Shown here: piece after piece, positions 683 to 56,201 of the stretch | Numbering within the stretch: the first letter of the stretch is position 1 | How the letters are laid out: the number at the start of each line of letters is the position of its first letter | Source: Chloroflexota bacterium | GTDB taxonomy: Bacteria > Chloroflexota > Chloroflexia > Chloroflexales > Herpetosiphonaceae | NCBI GenBank assembly: GCA_020161265.1 | Contig: JAIUOC010000006.1 | Location: 310,001-374,000, forward strand | Direction: 5' to 3' | DNA length: 64,000 nt | Made by a program: the position numbers and the translations under genes | The notes under the pieces: generated by a model | Database searches by the model: none | What the model was told of the DNA's origin: nothing | Seen by the model: the letters and a program-made list of their open reading frames with translations, nothing else

Positions 683-1510
683 ATGACGGTTTATAAGTCG
701 CCTGTTGGAAAATATGGAATTCCGTTTACCATTCTTTTACTCGTTGTTACGGTTATAGCTGCTATTGAAAGTACAATTTTTGCAGCAATAGTTTGTCTGT
801 TGCTCGCTGTAATTCCAGTTGGCTTTACGTGGTTAGCTTATAAGTGGAAATTTATCGCTGCTGATGATTATATGCAAGTTGATTCGATTGTGGATGGTAA
901 AAAAATTAACTGGGGTGAGATTATCGCAGTTGAAGATATGACCCATAATAATGGGATGTATCAGATTCGCGCAGTGAGTAAAACCCAAATATTCGCAGTA
1001 TCGGCTTCGATGTTAAACCCGAAAGATTTTCGGTCAATTGTTGCCTATATGATTCAAAAAGCTGAAGAGAACCAGATAGCATTTAATCGCAATATACCCT
1101 ATTTACAATCGATTTATTATCGACATAATCCAAAAATGATATCCAAATTAAGTTCATTTTCACCACCATTAAATCAAAAAGCCTCGATGTGGGCCTATGT
1201 TGTATTTATTGGGGTAATAATTATTTCTAGTTTGTTTATCCAGCAGCTTGAACGTGATAATCCACATATCTATATAAATCAATTATTCTGGATTGCACCA
1301 GTTGGACTAACTTCTTTTCGTTGGGCTTTTTTATTAATGGCCCAATTTCCGCAAAACTTACAGGCGATTGAGCATAATCAGCGTGAGCAGCACGAGCAGA
1401 TGTTTGTGCCAACTGTGGCATCATCACAGCCCTATCGTTTGCCATTTGCACTGGTTTCAGTAGCTTTGGTGATGATGATTGCAGGATTTGCTTGGTATTT
1501 GACCCGTTGA
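683..1510 (+). CDS. Membrane protein of unknown function
   Basis: I do not recognise this 275-residue protein. Two hydrophobic helices lie near residues 12-31 and 32-52. A soluble stretch of about 110 residues follows, beginning with short beta-like segments (YMQVDSIVDGKKINW) that resemble bacterial PH-like membrane proteins. Further helices lie near 168-186, 199-217 and 252-272. The start ATG is preceded by GAGGGGTAAGACGT. Codon use is visibly more A/T-rich than in the neighbouring haem genes, which could mean a recent arrival or weak expression. It is the last plus-strand gene before a bidirectional terminator that separates it from hemL. Confidence 0.75.
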   Translation: MTVYKSPVGKYGIPFTILLLVVTVIAAIESTIFAAIVCLLLAVIPVGFTWLAYKWKFIAADDYMQVDSIVDGKKINWGEIIAVEDMTHNNGMYQIRAVSKTQIFAVSASMLNPKDFRSIVAYMIQKAEENQIAFNRNIPYLQSIYYRHNPKMISKLSSFSPPLNQKASMWAYVVFIGVIIISSLFIQQLERDNPHIYINQLFWIAPVGLTSFRWAFLLMAQFPQNLQAIEHNQREQHEQMFVPTVASSQPYRLPFALVSVALVMMIAGFAWYLTR

Positions 1511-1517
1511 ATCAAAG

Positions 1518-1548
1518 CAGCGCCAGTTTAATCATCAAACTGGCGCTG
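1518..1548. terminator. Bidirectional terminator between convergent genes
   Basis: A perfect 12-bp stem (CAGCGCCAGTTT at 1518-1529 with AAACTGGCGCTG at 1537-1548) and a 7-nt loop lie between the plus-strand membrane protein and the minus-strand hemL. A T-rich stretch follows on the plus side. On the minus side the T content is weaker. Confidence 0.75.
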
Positions 1549-1556
1549 GATTTGTT

Positions 1557-2846
1557 TTAGCTGCGAATACTGGCAAAAGCCGCTTGGGCTGCATTGATCG
1601 TTTGAGCGACGAGTTCATCGGTATGGGCAGTTGAGACAAAGGCGGCCTCAAATTGTGATGGCGCGAGATACACGCCTTGCTCAAGCATCGCATGGAAGAA
1701 TTTGCCAAACATGGTGGTATCTGCCCGCTTGGCCGATGTGAAATCGTAAACTTCATCGCCAGCAAAGAAGAAGCCCCACATACTACCAGCTTTATGCGCT
1801 TGGAAGGGAATGCCATTTTTGAAGGCGGCCTTCCAAAAGCCTTGGCACAGCGTCGAAGTTACGCCAGTTAAGCGCTCGAAAACTTCGGGCTTGGCAATTT
1901 CACGCAAGGTTACAATGCCTGCGACCATCGCCAGTGGGTTGCCCGAAAGCGTGCCAGCTTGATACATTGTGCCTGCTGGCGCGACCATCTGCATAATCTC
2001 GCGTTGCCCACCATAGGCCGCTGCTGGCAAACCGCCGCCTACTACTTTGCCCAAACAGGTCAAATCGGGCATCACATTGAAGTAGGCTTGTGCGCCGCCA
2101 TAGGCCACGCGAAAGCCCGTCATCACTTCGTCGAAAATCAATAGCGCCCCGTGTTGATCGCAAAGTTGGCGCAGACCTGCAAGATAGCCTTCGCGCGGCA
2201 GCACAAAGCCCATATTGCCTGCCACAGGCTCGATCACTAAGGCGGCAACTTGCCCAGCATTGGCTTTGAACAAGGCTTCGACCGCTTCAAGATCGTTAAA
2301 TGGTGCGGTCAGGGTGTTGCTGGTAGCGCTTTTTAACACGCCTGGGCTATCGGGCAAGCCCAAGGTTGCCACACCTGAGCCAGCTTGCACCAAAAATGGA
2401 TCAGCATGGCCGTGATAGCAACCCTCAAATTTGATAATTTTCTCGCGTTGAGTGTAAGCCCGCGCCAACCGAATTGCGCTCATCGTGGCTTCAGTGCCCG
2501 ACGAAACAAAGCGCACCATCTCGACACTTGGCACGGCGGCGATCACCAACTCGGCCAATTCGCTTTCAAGCTCAGTTGGTGCGCCAAAGCTTGTGCCACG
2601 TTGGGCTTGAGCACAAATTGCCTCGACTACTGCTGGATAGGCGTGGCCTAGAATTAACGGCCCCCACGACAAGACATAATCGATATACTGGTTGCCATCA
2701 ATGTCGTAGAGATAGGCTCCTGCACCATGATCGATAAAGCGTGGCACGCCGCCAACGCCCCGAAAAGCCCGCACCGGGCTATTCACTCCGCCTGGTAAAA
2801 GTGCTTGGGCGCGTTCAAACGCCGCGCTAGAAGCATCGTTGATCAC
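1557..2846 (-). CDS. hemL: Glutamate-1-semialdehyde 2,1-aminomutase
   Basis: This PLP enzyme moves the amino group of glutamate-1-semialdehyde to give 5-aminolevulinate, the second step of the C5 pathway. Family motifs present are [12 protein letters not shown] at the N-terminus, [23 protein letters not shown], and [18 protein letters not shown] with the PLP-binding Lys. I chose the GTG at 2846, giving 429 residues. It has GGAG 9 nt upstream and matches the family length, whereas the longer reading at 2915 would translate intergenic repeat sequence. It is the last gene of the minus-strand haem cluster, separated from hemB by ~190 nt of dispersed repeats. Confidence 0.97.
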
Positions 2847-2859
2847 GTTTTTATGTCTC

Positions 2860-3037
2860 CATATGTCTTGAGGATCGGGGATCGGGGGCTGGGGATTTAA
2901 AACCACGAAGAACACGAAGAGCGCGAAGAAACCCTGTATGTTCTATGCTCTATGTTCTATGCTCTATGCTCTGCACTAAATCCAATCCCCAATCCCCAAC
3001 AGCCGATCCCCAGCCCTATGTTCTATGTTCTTCGTCC
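2860..3037. repeat. Composite of short dispersed repeats between hemB and hemL
   Basis: This gap holds three kinds of low-complexity units: GGATCGGGG-like units (2873-2896 and again, inverted, near 2990-3015), a run of CACGAAGA/GCGCGAAGA units (2901-2930), and heptamers of the type TCTATGT/TCTATGC (2937-2975 and 3016-3035). The same unit types recur at 6970-7130, 30631-30872 and 47494-47577 in this window. No coding potential is seen. Confidence 0.7.
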
Positions 3038-4045
3038 CTAGGCTTTCAACCACTGCGCCGCCGCTTTGGCATAGTAGGTGATGATCATACTTGCACCTGC
3101 TCGGCGAATTGCCAGCAAGCTTTCGAGCGCTACCCGTTGCTCATCGATCCAGCCGTTGGCAGCAGCAGCTTTGATCATGGCGTATTCGCCGCTAACTTGA
3201 TAGGCCGCCAGTGGCAGATCAAATTCTTCGTAAACTGCCCGAATAATATCCAAATAAGCTCCAGCTGGCTTGACCATCAGCCAATCTGCTCCTTCGGCAA
3301 CATCGAGCGCGGTTTCGGCAATCGCTTCCCGGGCGTTGGCCGCATCCATTTGGTACGAGCGGCGGTCGCCAAATTGGGGCGTTGATTCGGCAGCTTCGCG
3401 GAAGGGGCCGTAGAAAGCTGAGGCAAATTTGGCTGCATACGACAGAATGATGGTATCGTGATAGCCTGCTTGATCAAGGCCATAGCGAATTGCGGCAATT
3501 TGGCCATCCATCATGGCACTGGGCGCAACCACATCAGCGCCAGCCTCGGCATAAGCTACCGAAGCACGGGCTAAAAGTTCTAAGGTTGGGTCGTTATCAA
3601 CAGTGATCGTTTCTGGCTCACCGCTGGTTAAAATGCCACAATGGCCGTGGTCGGTATATTCGCACATACAAACATCGGCAATTACCACCAAATGTGGTGC
3701 TTGCTGCTTAATTGCCCGAATTGCGCTAGGCACAGGGCCATTCGCATCCCAAGCTGAGCTACCTTGGGCATCTTTGTGCAATGGAATGCCAAAGAGCAGC
3801 ACCGCTGGAATTTGCGCCGCAACCAGTTCATCAATCTCAGTGCCAAGCTGATCGAGCGACAGCTGAAATTGACCAGGCATCGAACTAATTGGCTTGCGAA
3901 TATTCTGGCCTTCAACAATAAATAATGGGGCAATTAAATTATCAACAGTTAATTGAGTTTCGCGTACCATGCGCCGTAATGTGGCGTTGCGCCGTCCGCG
4001 CCGCAAGCGACGATTGGGCGTTGGCACGCCTTCGAGCATACTCAT
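3038..4045 (-). CDS. hemB: Delta-aminolevulinic acid dehydratase (porphobilinogen synthase)
   Basis: The enzyme condenses two 5-aminolevulinate molecules into porphobilinogen. The two active-site lysines are visible in [15 protein letters not shown] and [13 protein letters not shown]. The region [19 protein letters not shown] retains the cysteines of the zinc-type enzymes. The start at 4045 (335 residues) overlaps the hemD stop as ATGA and has AAGGAA just upstream, so translation is probably coupled to hemD. A reading from 4072 is possible but would extend back into hemD without its own ribosome site. Confidence 0.97.
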
Positions 4046-43340: not shown

Positions 43341-43493
43341 AAATTATTTAGGAATATTGGGCTATAGCGCAATTGCTTGAAACCAGCCACGATAGTGAAG
43401 GTTCTGCGATTGAAGGTTATTGCCAACAGCCTAAGTTCTGGTTTCGTCGCTATTGAGCTTGATTGCTGCAATTGGCTCAGAAATTGGCAACCC

Positions 43494-44354
43494 ATGCAAG
43501 ATCCCTATTCAGGCTATCAACCTGAGCGTGTTGAATATTCGCCCAACCAACCTGTGATGGTGCAACTGCCCAGTGCGCCAGTACGGGCTACTTGGGTGTT
43601 TATGGCGATCAACGTTGTTATGTTTGTGATTTGTATTCTCAAGGGCATGAGCGTGATGGGCAATGCTCGCGGCGATGCCTTTGTCTTGATCGAGCTTGGA
43701 GCCAAGTGGTCGCCTTTGATGGATATGGGCGGCGAATGGTGGCGCTTATTGACTGCGACTGTGCTGCACGGCGGGATTGTGCATATTGGCTTTAATATGT
43801 ATGCCCTGTATGCGCTTGGCCCAACCGTTGAGCGCTTCTATGGTAGCCTGCGGTTTAGCGTGATCTATCTGATTGCGGGGATTGGCGGGGCTTGGGCTTC
43901 GTATAGTTTTGGCAATTTGACTGGCCCTTCAATTGGCGCATCGGGGGCAATCTTCGGCCTAATTGGCTGTTTGATTGGCTTTTTCCTGTCGGCTCGCAGC
44001 GTCTTGGGTGATTTTGCTCGCCAAAACTTGCGCCAAATGGTCGGCACAGCAGCAATTAACTTGATTATCGGCTTATCGTTTTCGTCGGTGATCGACAATT
44101 ATGCGCACATTGGCGGGATGCTGATGGGCTTGGCGGTGGGCTATGGTTTGGCTCCACGGCTTGTCTATATTGCCGATTGGTTTAAACCGCGGATTGAGGC
44201 CAACGCGCCATCAGCATTGCGCTGGCTGAGCGTGGTTGGTGCGGTTGGCTTTATTCTGGTTGCAACGTGGTTTGTGCATAATCAACGCATGAACGATGCT
44301 ACAAGCGTTGCGCTCTTAGAAGAACTTTATCAAGCTTGGTTAAATGCCCGTTAG
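43494..44354 (+). CDS. Rhomboid family intramembrane serine protease
   Basis: The ~286-residue protein has a soluble Pro/Tyr-rich N-terminus and about seven helices. Rhomboid landmarks are VLHGGIVHIGFNMYALYALG (His and Asn of the oxyanion site), PSIGASGAIFGLIG (nucleophile Ser in GASG) and SVIDNYAHIGGMLMG (catalytic His). The start at ATG 43494 gives the usual length, but its ribosome site is poor. It interrupts the cluster between murD and ftsW; whether it cuts a division or cell wall protein is unknown. Confidence 0.9.
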   Translation: MQDPYSGYQPERVEYSPNQPVMVQLPSAPVRATWVFMAINVVMFVICILKGMSVMGNARGDAFVLIELGAKWSPLMDMGGEWWRLLTATVLHGGIVHIGFNMYALYALGPTVERFYGSLRFSVIYLIAGIGGAWASYSFGNLTGPSIGASGAIFGLIGCLIGFFLSARSVLGDFARQNLRQMVGTAAINLIIGLSFSSVIDNYAHIGGMLMGLAVGYGLAPRLVYIADWFKPRIEANAPSALRWLSVVGAVGFILVATWFVHNQRMNDATSVALLEELYQAWLNAR

Positions 44355-44369: not shown

Positions 44370-45812
44370 ATGAACGATCGAGTTCCGCGAAAACCTGATG
44401 GAATGTTGCTAGCCCTGGTGGGCGGCTTGGTTGCGTTTGGGCTAGTGATGGTCTATAGCTCATCGTTCTATGTGGCCTATGCCGAATATGGCTCATCGGT
44501 CTATTGGGTGTTGCGCCAAACCATGTGGGCAATTGCCGGCGTTGGCGCAATGATTGCGACCATGCGCTTTGATTATCGTAAATTGCGGCGTTTTTCGTTG
44601 CCCTTAATGCTTGTTACGCTCTTTTTGCTGCTCCTAGTATTGCTATTGCCCGAACATATTACCAAGGTCAATGGTGCTAGTCGCTGGATTAACATTGGCC
44701 CAGTTGGGATGCAGCCCAGCGAAATTGCCAAATTTGCAGCGATTATCTATTTTGCCGACTGGCTTTCGCGGCGTGGCTCGAAAATTCGTCAATTTGTCAC
44801 AGGGCTATTGCCGTTTGGGATTATGCTCGGGCTATTGGCGGGCTTGGTGCTGTTGCAACCAAATATGAGTACCACGATTGTGATTGTGGTGATCAGTGCA
44901 GCAATTTTGTTTACCTCAGGTGCAAGTTTGACCCACTTGGGCATCGCCGCCAGTATGACCACGGTGGTTGGTTGGCTGGCGATTCAATCGGCGGGCTATC
45001 GGGCTTTGCGGGTGTTGGTCTGGCAAGATCCCTTCAGCTATCCGCGTGATGGTGGCTATCAACCAATCCATGCCTTGTATGCACTTGGCTCAGGCAGCTG
45101 GACAGGCGTTGGTTTAGGCCAAAGCCGCCAGAAATTTTTCTGGTTGCCGTTTGCCCATACCGATGCAATTTACGCCGTGATTGGTGAAGAATTAGGCATC
45201 ATTGGTGCTGGCTTGGTGCTGGCAGCATTTGTCGTGCTGGCAGTGCGCGGTTTCCGCATCGCCTCGCGCTCGCTCGACCCGTTTGGAGCCTTGATTGCCG
45301 TAGGCGTGACCACGTGGTTGGTGGTGCAAGCACTGATTAATATCGCCGTTGTGACCACCGTGATTCCATTTACTGGAATTACCCTGCCATTTATTTCGTA
45401 TGGTGGTTCATCGTTGATGATGACCATGATTGCGGCGGGCTTGCTGCTGAGTGTAACCCGTTATGCGCCGTTGAAACGGGCTGAGGAACGAACCAATGAA
45501 CTCTCCATCCCCACAATTGGCCAACTCCGACCGCGAGTGGTCGCCGCTGCTGATGCTGTGCGGCGGTGGCACGGGCGGCCACGTGTATCCGGCTTTGGCG
45601 GTGGCCAGCGCCCTGAAGAACATCACCGATCCGGCAGCTTTGCCGTCGGCAACTCCCTCGGCGGAACGTGGCGCAAACCAGCCGACGAATCCAAGCGACT
45701 TATCGCTTGGCGCAAGCCCAAACAGCGCAAAAACTTGGTCAGCCAGCCAATCAACGGCAGCACCGCCCGCGAACGGATCGAGCAGCGTCGGCGCAATAAA
45801 CGCCAACGTTAA
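44370..45812 (+). CDS. ftsW: Septal peptidoglycan glycosyltransferase FtsW with an unusual C-terminal tail
   Basis: FtsW is the SEDS-family polymerase paired with FtsI. The membrane core fills residues ~10-370: YSSSFYVAYAEYGSSVYW, INIGPVGMQPSEIAKFA, GGYQPIHALYALGSGSWTG, and ITLPFISYGGSSLMM. Beyond it lies a ~105-residue, strongly basic tail ending in RERIEQRRRNKRQR. That whole tail is encoded within the first 317 nt of murG, in another frame. GGAGG precedes the ATG. Confidence 0.95.
   Translation: MNDRVPRKPDGMLLALVGGLVAFGLVMVYSSSFYVAYAEYGSSVYWVLRQTMWAIAGVGAMIATMRFDYRKLRRFSLPLMLVTLFLLLLVLLLPEHITKVNGASRWINIGPVGMQPSEIAKFAAIIYFADWLSRRGSKIRQFVTGLLPFGIMLGLLAGLVLLQPNMSTTIVIVVISAAILFTSGASLTHLGIAASMTTVVGWLAIQSAGYRALRVLVWQDPFSYPRDGGYQPIHALYALGSGSWTGVGLGQSRQKFFWLPFAHTDAIYAVIGEELGIIGAGLVLAAFVVLAVRGFRIASRSLDPFGALIAVGVTTWLVVQALINIAVVTTVIPFTGITLPFISYGGSSLMMTMIAAGLLLSVTRYAPLKRAEERTNELSIPTIGQLRPRVVAAADAVRRWHGRPRVSGFGGGQRPEEHHRSGSFAVGNSLGGTWRKPADESKRLIAWRKPKQRKNLVSQPINGSTARERIEQRRRNKRQR
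45496..45812 (+). other. Out-of-frame overlap of ftsW and murG (317 nt)
   Basis: Both frames are open through this stretch. The ftsW frame encodes its basic tail. The murG frame, shifted by +1, encodes the start, the conserved glycine loop CGGGTGGHVYPALAVASAL, and then ~65 residues of Pro/Ser/Ala/Asn-rich sequence that other MurG proteins lack. MurG similarity resumes at LRYIGS (from 45820), only 8 nt after the ftsW stop. Confidence 0.85.
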
Positions 45813-46854
45813 GCCGCAACTGCGCTATATTGGCTCGGTTGATGGCATGGAAGGCGATTTGGTTGAGCGCGAAAGCACAATTCCGTTTATTGGCCTGCCT
45901 GCTGCGGCCATGCGTGGGCGCAATCCACTGCAAATGCTGAAAAATGCTGGGGTTTTGATCAAAGGAGTGCTTGCTGCTCGCAGCTTGTTGCGACGCGAAC
46001 GGCCTGCGGCAATTTTGGGCACTGGCGGCTATGTGTGTGTGCCGTTGTTTGTGGCAGCGGCGCTTGAGCGTGTGCCGACCTTGCTTTATTTGCCAGATAT
46101 TGTGCCAGGCTGGGCTGGGCGGGTGTTGGCCCGTTTAGCCACGCGCATTGCTGTAACCTTTGATGATTCCAAGCGCTATTTGCCTGCGCATAAAGTGGTT
46201 GAAACGGGCTATCCGGTGCGTGGCGAGCTGTTTAATCAAAATAAAGCCCAGTGTCGAGCCATATTTGGCCTGAATGATCAATTGCCAGTGCTGTTGGTGT
46301 ATGGTGGCAGTCGCGGGGCACGATCGATCAATCAGGCGGTTGCCGCGCTCTTAAGCGATCTGTTAGAATTAGCACAGGTCGTGCATGTTTGCGGACGGAA
46401 TGGTGATGAAGCATGGTTGCGTGAGGCCCAAGCCAAACTCAGCCCTGAGCTAGCCAGCCGTTATCATCTTTACCCCTATCTGCATGCGGATGCTGAACGC
46501 TCGATGAGCACAGCGTTTGGCGCAGCAGATTTTGCGTTAAGTCGGGCTGGCGCATCGACGATGGCCGAACTTCCTGCCGCAGGCATTGGATCGATTTTGG
46601 TGCCTTTGACCATGGTGAAGCAAGAATATAACGCTGCTGCCCTAGCCGACCGCGGCGCAGCAATTAGCATTCCTGATGAAGCAATGCTAGGCTCTGGAGA
46701 GCCAATCCAAGGCCGTTTGTGGCGCGAACTCTCAGCAGTGCTGAGCAGCCCTTTGCGCTTACAAACGATGGCGCAACGCAGTGCCAGCCTTGCCCAACCA
46801 GATGCAGGGGCGCGGCTTGCCAGCGAATGGCTGGCGCTTGCCCGAGGAGGCTAA
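45496..46854 (+). CDS. murG: UDP-GlcNAc:lipid I N-acetylglucosaminyltransferase with N-terminal insertion
   Basis: MurG turns lipid I into lipid II at the inner face of the membrane. It is 452 residues, about 90 longer than usual. The glycine loop GGGTGGHVYPALAV (~23-36) is followed by an inserted ~65-residue low-complexity segment (~43-108), then GSVDGMEGDLVERE, GTGGYVCVPLFVAA, VYGGSRGARSINQA, and the acceptor region FALSRAGASTMAELPAAG. GAGG lies 8 nt before ATG 45496, and the frame contains the conserved loop, so this start is firm. Confidence 0.95.
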   Translation: MNSPSPQLANSDREWSPLLMLCGGGTGGHVYPALAVASALKNITDPAALPSATPSAERGANQPTNPSDLSLGASPNSAKTWSASQSTAAPPANGSSSVGAINANVKPQLRYIGSVDGMEGDLVERESTIPFIGLPAAAMRGRNPLQMLKNAGVLIKGVLAARSLLRRERPAAILGTGGYVCVPLFVAAALERVPTLLYLPDIVPGWAGRVLARLATRIAVTFDDSKRYLPAHKVVETGYPVRGELFNQNKAQCRAIFGLNDQLPVLLVYGGSRGARSINQAVAALLSDLLELAQVVHVCGRNGDEAWLREAQAKLSPELASRYHLYPYLHADAERSMSTAFGAADFALSRAGASTMAELPAAGIGSILVPLTMVKQEYNAAALADRGAAISIPDEAMLGSGEPIQGRLWRELSAVLSSPLRLQTMAQRSASLAQPDAGARLASEWLALARGG

Positions 46855-53716: not shown

Positions 53717-54964
53717 ATGAATCGCACCATTGTCGGTATTGATGTCGGTACAACCAAAATATGTACTTTGGTTGCTGAAGTTCACGATACAGGCAAAGTG
53801 AATATTTTAGGGGTTGGCCTCACGCCTTCCAAAGGTCTTGATCGCGGTGTTGTGGTCAATATCGACGAGGCAGTTAGCGCGATTGCAACTTCGGTTGAAA
53901 AGGCCGAACGGCTTTCGGGCTATCGCATTGGCACTGCCTTTGTCGGGATTGCGGGCCGCCATATTTCCTCAGTGAATAGTCGTGGGGTGGTTGCCATCTC
54001 ACGGCCTGATCATGAAATTTCGCGCACAGACGTTGCCCGCGCTGTCGAAGCCGCCCAAGCGATTGCCATCCCAACCCAACGTGAAGTGATCCATGTGATT
54101 CCACGGGCCTATATCGTTGATGGCCATGAGGGCATTCGCGACCCAGTGGGTATGGCAGGCTATCGGCTTGAAGTTGAAACGCATATCGTTACTGGCGAAG
54201 TAATGGCGATTCAAAACTTAATCAAGAGTGTTGAACGGGCTGGGGTCGGCATCGACGACCTGGTGCTGCAACCCTTAGCCTCAGGCGAGGCGGTGCTAAG
54301 CGAAGAAGATAAAAGCCGTGGGGTTGTGCTCGTTGATATTGGTGGTGGCACAACCGACATTGCGATTTTTATTGGTGGTGGCATTTGGCACACCGTGGTG
54401 TTGCCAATTGGCGGAGCACATTTCACCAATGATTTGGTCTATGTGCTGCATACACCGCATAACACCGCCGAATATCTCAAATTGCGCTATGGCAAAGTAA
54501 CCGATATCGACAGCCATGACCCTGATGATGATCTGATCGATACCGATGGCTTTTCGCCAGGCGAACATCAACAAGTCTCGCGGATTGAATTGAATGAAAT
54601 TCTGCAAGCGCGAGCCGAACAACTGATCGACATGATTGGCAATGAAATCCGTCGTTCTGGCTATGAAGGCCTACTGCCTGCGGGGATTGTCCTGACAGGT
54701 GGCTCGGCTCAATTGCCTGGCTTAGATGAGATGGCACGCCAACTTTTAGGGATGCCAGTGCGCATTGGCATTCCAACGAATTTGACTGGATTAGCTGAAG
54801 CAATAGATGCACCACCCTATGCCACGGCTGTGGGGCTTGTCCGTTGGGGCTTGCGTCATGGAATGGGCAGCGTTGGCGGCCATGCTGCGAGCCAACCAGC
54901 AACGACCAACTGGAAACAAACCTACGACCGCTTCAAAATGTGGTTACGGGAATTTTTACCCTAA
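53717..54964 (+). CDS. ftsA: Cell division protein FtsA
   Basis: FtsA is the actin-like membrane tether of FtsZ. The 415-residue protein has TIVGIDVGTTKICTLVAEV, the 1C domain (GIAGRHISSVNSRGVVAISR), GVVLVDIGGGTTDIAIF, and GIVLTGGSAQLPGLDEMA. It ends in YDRFKMWLREFLP, an amphipathic helix for membrane binding. GGGG precedes the ATG. Confidence 0.97.
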   Translation: MNRTIVGIDVGTTKICTLVAEVHDTGKVNILGVGLTPSKGLDRGVVVNIDEAVSAIATSVEKAERLSGYRIGTAFVGIAGRHISSVNSRGVVAISRPDHEISRTDVARAVEAAQAIAIPTQREVIHVIPRAYIVDGHEGIRDPVGMAGYRLEVETHIVTGEVMAIQNLIKSVERAGVGIDDLVLQPLASGEAVLSEEDKSRGVVLVDIGGGTTDIAIFIGGGIWHTVVLPIGGAHFTNDLVYVLHTPHNTAEYLKLRYGKVTDIDSHDPDDDLIDTDGFSPGEHQQVSRIELNEILQARAEQLIDMIGNEIRRSGYEGLLPAGIVLTGGSAQLPGLDEMARQLLGMPVRIGIPTNLTGLAEAIDAPPYATAVGLVRWGLRHGMGSVGGHAASQPATTNWKQTYDRFKMWLREFLP

Positions 54965-55034: not shown

Positions 55035-56201
55035 ATGGATTTCAATAGCAACTTAATTGAAAATTTCGCCCAAATCAAGGTGATTGGGGTTGGTGGTGGC
55101 GGCTCGAATGCGGTTGATCGCATGGTCGAATCGGGCCTGCAAGGGGTCGAATTTATCACCGTCAACACCGATGCTCAAGCCCTGATTCACTCGCCTGCCA
55201 CAATTCGCGTGCGGATTGGCGATAAACTGACGCGCGGGCTTGGCTCAGGCGGTAATCCCGTGATTGGCCAAAAAGCCGCCGAAGAAACCCATGATGAGCT
55301 GCACGATGTGTTGCGTGGCTCGGATATGGTTTTCATCACTGCTGGCATGGGTGGTGGTACTGGCACAGGTGCTTCGCCCGTGATTGCTTCAATTGCCCAA
55401 GAAATTGGCGCTTTGACGGTTGGTGTGGTGACGCGCCCCTTCTTGTTTGAGGGCAACCATCGCCGCAAAGTTGCCGAATCGGGGATTGACCAACTCAAGC
55501 CAAGCGTTGATGCCTTGATTGTGGTGCCAAACGATCGCTTGCTGCAAATTGCTTCGAAAAACACCAAAATGAATGAAGCTTTTCGCATGGCCGACGATGT
55601 GCTGCGCCAAGGTATTCAAGGGATCTCCGATTTGATTACCAGTCGTGGTTTGATTAACCTCGACTTTGCCGACGTAAAAACCATTATGTCGCAACAAGGC
55701 ACGGCCTTGATGGCAATTGGCCATGGTATCGGCGATAATCGCATGGTCGATGCTGCCAATATGGCGATTTCATCACCCTTGCTTGAAATCTCGATTGATG
55801 GTGCTAAGGGCGTGCTGTTCAACGTGACTGGTGGCGAAGATTTGGGCTTGTTGGAAGTCAACGAAGCTGCCGAGATTATTTCCAAGGCAGCTGATCCTGA
55901 TGCCAACATTATTTTCGGCGCACGGATTGACCCTAACCTGCCAGCTGATGAAGTTAAAATCACGATTATTGCTACCGGCTTTGATCAAGCGCGACCACAA
56001 GGCAACAATCGCTCACGTTCATATCCATCGGCGCAAAGCCAACCTAGCCAACCAACCAGCTACCAACAACCAGTGCAGCAACCAGTGCGGCCAGCACCTC
56101 AACCGCAACAACCACAACGGCCCACTCCACCAACCTCGTTTGGTAGCAACGACGATTTAGATATTCCGCCATTCTTGCGCAACCGCGAACGCCGCAAGTA
56201 A
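55035..56201 (+). CDS. ftsZ: Cell division protein FtsZ
   Basis: FtsZ is the tubulin-like GTPase that forms the division ring. The sequence shows [17 protein letters not shown], the tubulin loop [21 protein letters not shown], and [12 protein letters not shown] Gln/Pro-rich linker (~320-375) leads to the C-terminal peptide [16 protein letters not shown], which binds FtsA. At 388 residues its length is normal. GGAGG stands upstream of the ATG. Confidence 0.98.

Follow-up and report, generated by a model that had tools for sequence, protein, structure and literature searches.

A large survey of co-directional gene overlaps longer than 60 bp in prokaryotes rated all 715 of them as misannotations and none as real, and proposed that such overlaps be flagged as annotation errors (Palleja et al. 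2008, PMC2478687). In the 64,000-nucleotide stretch of a Herpetosiphonaceae genome analyzed here (the window), ftsW and murG share 317 nt in two different reading frames. Is this overlap an annotation error, a tolerated read-through, or DNA that is selected for two proteins at once? Our analysis suggests that it is very probably a real, selected overlap, formed as the 3' end of ftsW was extended over murG.

The gene pair and the geometry of the overlap

The 317-nt overlap in different frames had been proposed in a sequence-only reading of the window, and both open reading frames are present on the + strand as it described. The features are as follows.

44370..45812, + strand: ftsW, 480 aa, with a core of ~370 residues and a tail (residues 376-480) inside murG; stop codon at 45810-45812
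45496..46854, + strand: murG, 452 aa, with its start codon (45496-45498) within ftsW
45496..45812, + strand: ftsW/murG overlap, 317 nt, two reading frames
45483..45486, + strand: GAGG, Shine-Dalgarno-like in sequence, 9 nt 5' of the murG ATG
45496..45561, + strand: first overlap segment, FtsW helix LRPRVVAAADAVRRW over MurG strand 1
45562..45627, + strand: loop segment, MurG GGGTGGH loop and helix 1; FtsW reading RWHGRPRVSG
45580..45582, + strand: MurG loop His codon, CAC, overlying the FtsW Arg405 codon (45582-45584)
45628..45809, + strand: insertion segment, on the MurG side a Ser/Ala/Pro/Asn-rich, disordered linker
45765..45806, + strand: predicted basic C-terminal helix of FtsW, residues 466-479, pLDDT ~62-80

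The murG frame is one base out of phase relative to ftsW (codons at 44370 + 3n versus 45496 + 3n), and FtsW codon positions 1, 2 and 3 correspond to MurG positions 3, 1 and 2. A change that is silent in one frame will therefore nearly always alter the protein read in the other, and the overlap can be tested with unusual ease. Similarity to other MurG proteins, thought earlier to resume 8 nt past the ftsW stop, does resume close behind it, at a measured distance of 1-10 nt (MurG residues 107-110). A 132-aa antisense ORF (45408-45806, - strand) covers most of the overlap. Between murD and ftsW in the wall-synthesis cluster, an ORF at 43377-44354 appears by eye to encode a rhomboid-like membrane protein.

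FtsW was matched by TIGR02614 with 371.3 bits, above the curated cut-off of 337.5, in a match that ends at residue 365, and also by Pfam PF01098. For the murG product, the Pfam GT28 N- and C-terminal domains scored 77.1 and 77.8 bits (gathering scores 26.2 and 22), the best PDB match is MurG 3s2u, and the invariant MurG motifs are present. Its score against TIGR01133, 220.7 bits, falls below the cut-off of 250.25, with a match to the model only from residue 109, past the insertion. The gene is the sole full-length MurG match in the genome, which has three SEDS-family genes. We call its predicted product MurG on the basis of domains, gene context and this sole full-length match, rather than TIGR01133.

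Conservation in the order and the phylum

Both genes were readable together with the loop in 71 loci, 70 from the order and one from the near family f6 outside it. In every one of them, ftsW crosses into murG in the same phase and continues to a point 59-254 nt past the first base of the MurG GGGTGGH loop. The long form occurs in all nine Herpetosiphonaceae found (six Herpetosiphon and three others) and in all six genomes of family f2; elsewhere in the order the form is shorter, with ftsW ending 59-185 nt beyond the loop start. Overlap lengths were 80-320 nt with predicted starts, some of which are uncertain (L020, L025 and the f2 loci), and roughly 110-320 nt with the best-supported starts. 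Conservation of both frames in the same phase across relatives, one mark of a genuine overlapping pair, was thus found throughout these loci. The faults that produce misannotated long overlaps, namely a misplaced start, a frameshift or loss of the stop (categories of PMC2478687), do not describe this one, as orthologs in the order share the extension. The sequence-only reading had named an early ftsW stop in relatives, or a sequencing error, as outcomes that would count against the tail, and neither was seen in the order. A sequencing error as the source of the open frame was ruled out by the many independent genomes with the same frame, and a later MurG start was ruled out because it would lose the invariant GGGTGGH loop or strand 1.

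The insertion was once thought to be unique to this MurG; instead, it is common to all Herpetosiphonaceae found and their probable sister family, with shorter insertions elsewhere in the order. In a tree of FtsW and MurG, Herpetosiphonaceae and f2 joined weakly (0.50) and f3 and f4 joined at 0.998; f2 is the probable sister family of Herpetosiphonaceae by this sequence comparison. Long tails also occur as single cases in f3 and f4 (G016, G048, G066 and G076), suggesting that the tail was probably lengthened more than once. The length of the FtsW tail followed the length of the MurG loop (Spearman 0.77, uncorrected for kinship), with exceptions: G006, in which FtsW reads past the loop, and G059, with an insertion but no FtsW extension. 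In the latter (L016), the MurG insertion consists of tandem repeats (GNRGTEEQ-like) 3' of the ftsW stop, so that the loop has grown while FtsW has not been extended. Most other families of the class showed no ftsW immediately upstream of murG.

Outside the class, our comparison was kept within Chloroflexota and covered 50 loci with adjacent ftsW and murG. In 36 of these, ftsW reads at least 40 nt past the loop start, always in the same phase; in 12 it ends before the loop, and two were not measurable. The overlap therefore extends through the order and is frequent in the phylum rather than being a local peculiarity; the 12 loci in which ftsW ends before the loop imply that it is dispensable in some lineages. 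It may be old in Chloroflexota with subsequent losses, or it may have originated repeatedly; support at the deep nodes of the tree is too weak to decide between these. Several loci are unusual in other ways. In families f17, f50 and f59, the His of GGGTGGH is replaced by Gly in a CAGGTGGGVYPA-like loop (L148, L150, L151, L153, L154, L155, L157, L158, L189-L196 and L198). The open frame around murG spans 731-890 aa in G166, G214, G270 and G277, and in G277 (L185) an upstream murG-frame stretch over murD and ftsW, Arg/Pro/Ala-rich by eye, accounts for the extra length. In L197 (G300; 1114-3387), a single 757-aa frame covers FtsW and MurG, while MurG strand 1 is still encoded in the other frame as far as a run of G. 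We considered a true FtsW-MurG fusion here and set it aside, since the frame of strand 1 and the G run make a one-base deletion or a sequencing error likelier.

Selection on the two reading frames

Substitutions within the genus were counted in six gapless Herpetosiphon genomes as variable sites at FtsW codon positions 1/2/3. The counts were 25/8/159 in ftsW-only DNA and 115/20/6 in murG-only DNA. The insertion gave 5/1/20, favoring the FtsW pattern by a log-likelihood ratio of 46 nats, and the loop and helix gave 7/1/1; in the first overlap segment, 2 of 66 sites vary. An overlap-aware estimate of dNN/dSN in the insertion was 0.068 for FtsW (bootstrap 0-0.178); the corresponding ratio for MurG, 0.31 (0-2.15), is indistinguishable from 1. 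In f2, the preference for FtsW in the extension is weaker (26/26/43). These substitutions indicate that the FtsW frame in the insertion is under strong purifying selection in Herpetosiphon and that the tail is a selected product.

Over the loop, the substitution pattern is of the MurG type, yet silent divergence is lowered. Conservation of the FtsW motif was dropped as stand-alone evidence here because MurG dictates most of it, and was replaced by tests at MurG-silent sites. With windows of 19 and 16 codons, the rate at MurG 4-fold (silent) sites in the loop relative to the rest of murG was 0.28-0.75 in all 13 overlapping clades, compared to 0.78-1.63 in eight clades without the overlap (exact rank test, p = 5e-6). 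All 71 loci have CAC as the loop His codon, while 51% of the other MurG His codons in these genes are CAT and the controls have 22 CAC and 16 CAT; the Fisher value of 4e-9 overstates this evidence, as the 71 loci are related, though they span about thirty genera. A CAT codon at this position would turn FtsW Arg405 into Cys. When the synonymous codons of MurG were chosen anew, the FtsW frame stayed open across the whole overlap in 2 of 20,000 trials, and a shifted frame that stays open beyond the loop was seen in all 71 loci of the order and f6, compared to 13 of 38 class members without an upstream ftsW. As judged from these patterns, both frames are constrained over the GGGTGGH loop. Constraint on the MurG frame is visible in the invariant loop, in the MurG-type pattern there and in an insertion that stays open and hydrophilic. 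Amino-acid selection in both frames, a further mark of a genuine overlapping pair, was thus found as well.

The insertion lies between helix 1 (residues 27-44) and strand 2 (108-114) in an AlphaFold2 model of MurG, in which residues 51-101 have pLDDT <50 and the rest is mostly confident. The FtsW tail is modeled as mostly unstructured, with a low-confidence helix at residues 387-401 in addition to the basic C-terminal helix. FtsW-synonymous shuffles left the MurG frame open in ~10% of cases and gave an expectation of ~16 hydrophobic residues of 59, compared to the 2-9 seen in the MurG insertions of six genomes. This effect was significant mainly in Herpetosiphon, and the outcome was the same with codons drawn from ftsW alone or from seven other window genes. 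The FtsW third bases in the insertion are C-rich and T-poor, compared to 30% T in other window genes. The choice of third bases fits selection for an open, hydrophilic MurG linker; alternatively, it may reflect a local base bias of other cause. The MurG insertion is best described as FtsW coding space, a disordered linker, rather than as a feature of MurG.

Origin and expression of the overlap

Read out of frame, the GGN glycine codons of MurG become NGG, encoding Arg, Trp or Gly, and the GGGTGGHVYP run reads in the FtsW frame as an R/W/G-rich stretch followed by Arg, Val/Leu and Ser/Pro. This reading by itself yields a basic FtsW tail. Throughout the order, and in most of the sampled Chloroflexota loci with ftsW ahead of murG, ftsW runs out of frame through the codons of the MurG nucleotide-sugar loop. 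Herpetosiphonaceae and their probable sister family, as well as a few other lineages independently, have an enlarged surface loop joining helix 1 to strand 2 of MurG, and FtsW is read through it. In Herpetosiphon, MurG tolerates the resulting residues as a linker that is probably kept open and hydrophilic by the choice of FtsW third bases. The sequence-only reading had taken the locus for overprinting with both products extended. The conservation and the substitution patterns in both frames agree with this, but the two frames are unequal, with FtsW dominant in the insertion, and the overlap is not local.

MurG would be initiated independently at the GAGG site inside ftsW, so that both proteins could be made from one mRNA. 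A GAGG or AAGG-type site is kept before murG in the Herpetosiphonaceae compared, and many f4 genomes have an AGGAG-type site; independent initiation of murG within ftsW is the simplest reading of these sites. The pair does not have the stop and the next start within a few nucleotides of each other, as termination-reinitiation pairs do, and classical stop-start coupling is unlikely because ftsW stops 314 nt past the start codon of murG.

Four other explanations were weighed. The tail could be tolerated junk, added when ftsW lost its stop and was read to the next chance stop in a frame kept open by base composition. Openness alone is indeed not rare, given the 13 of 38 loci without an upstream ftsW, and the loop-derived FtsW residues are largely set by MurG. 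Purifying selection on the FtsW frame in the insertion nevertheless makes neutral read-through very improbable, as do the lowered silent divergence in every overlapping clade, the unvarying loop His codon and a tail sequence that is near constant within the genus while MurG residues change. Conversely, the insertion could be a functional element of MurG, for example a membrane- or partner-binding loop, that carries the FtsW frame as a passenger. An open, hydrophilic MurG frame would suit such a loop, but 20 of the 26 variable sites in the insertion fall at MurG position 2, where they alter MurG and leave the FtsW residues as they are; the insertion is also modeled with low confidence as unstructured and differs in length and sequence between genera, and we regard this explanation as highly implausible.

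Alternatively, the main use of the overlap might be to couple the expression of the two genes or to have MurG made at the membrane next to nascent FtsW, with the sequence of the tail secondary. FtsW and MurG both act in septal wall synthesis, MurG is not seen at mid-cell in an E. coli FtsW(Ts) strain (PMC2170320), and interacting proteins are often encoded by overlapping pairs (PMC10666635). However, termination-reinitiation is favored by short distances (PMC10666635) rather than by one of this size, and coupling alone leaves the amino-acid-level constraint up to the end of the tail unexplained, so we consider this account unlikely. The two frames run side by side, offset by one base, for more than 300 nt, so a frameshift inside the overlap could yield some FtsW-MurG fusion protein, and the single frame of G300 might be taken as a precedent. 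We give this the least credence, and very little: by eye, no single-base run stands out in the Herpetosiphon loop sequence, the pattern in L197 points to a deletion or sequencing error, and the FtsW tail is selected up to its own stop.

Relation to known overlapping genes

The ftsW/murG pair resembles a tail-to-head co-directional overlap conserved in relatives that was described in PMC2478687 and is shorter than 60 bp. Unlike the long overlaps of that survey, it is conserved over roughly 110-320 nt and selected in both frames, which makes it a clear exception: two core wall-synthesis genes with measurable selection on each. A known long exception is rnpA/rpmH of Thermus (Feltens et al. 2003, as outlined in PMC9841429), which likewise has two core bacterial genes sharing DNA on the same strand in two frames. 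As outlined there, rpmH lies wholly within rnpA and the two genes have their start codons at one shared initiation site, whereas here the 3' end of ftsW lies over the 5' end of murG, the starts are separate and an enzyme loop is enlarged as coding space. The segregated overlaps of HIV-1 (PMC9119678) share two properties with ftsW/murG, namely per-nucleotide selection that is dominated by one gene and alternates along the overlap, and the placement of a structured part of one protein over a disordered part of the other. Unlike HIV-1, the present case is a cellular operon with two conserved enzymes, and no compact viral genome is involved. Our searches of open-access literature turned up no report of such an ftsW-murG overlap. 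Here the disordered tail of one protein is encoded within a tolerant loop of the other, which suggests a route by which overlaps grow and makes the pair a tractable case for studying the expression and evolution of overlapping essential genes.

Candidate role of the FtsW tail

The FtsW tail is cytoplasmic according to the established topology of FtsW. Its net charge is +12 to +22 in the long forms (f1 and f2) and +4 to +18 elsewhere. A candidate partner is encoded in the same window:

55035..56201, + strand: ftsZ, about 10 kb away

The encoded FtsZ has an acidic C terminus, the usual FtsZ C-terminal peptide. From charge and analogy, we tentatively suggest that the tail may be a divisome contact, most simply with this acidic peptide and/or with the membrane; MurG is a further candidate partner. 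Mycobacterial FtsW, which is reported to contact FtsZ (Datta 2006 and Rajagopalan 2005, as cited in PMC9939409), offers a model of how such a tail might work. FtsA is absent in mycobacteria (PMC9939409), and an FtsA-like ORF is found in the present window at 53717-54964. A broader and more doubtful proposal is that the overprint is as old as the phylum, in that the out-of-frame reading of the loop became a working divisome tail that was lengthened several times, as a MurG surface loop was enlarged into coding space, and that contacts MurG or FtsZ. If true, such a contact would hold lipid II synthesis and septal polymerization together. Predicted tryptic peptides of the window strain include SGSFAVGNSLGGTWR and NLVSQPINGSTAR from the FtsW tail and GANQPTNPSDLSLGASPNSAK from the MurG insertion.
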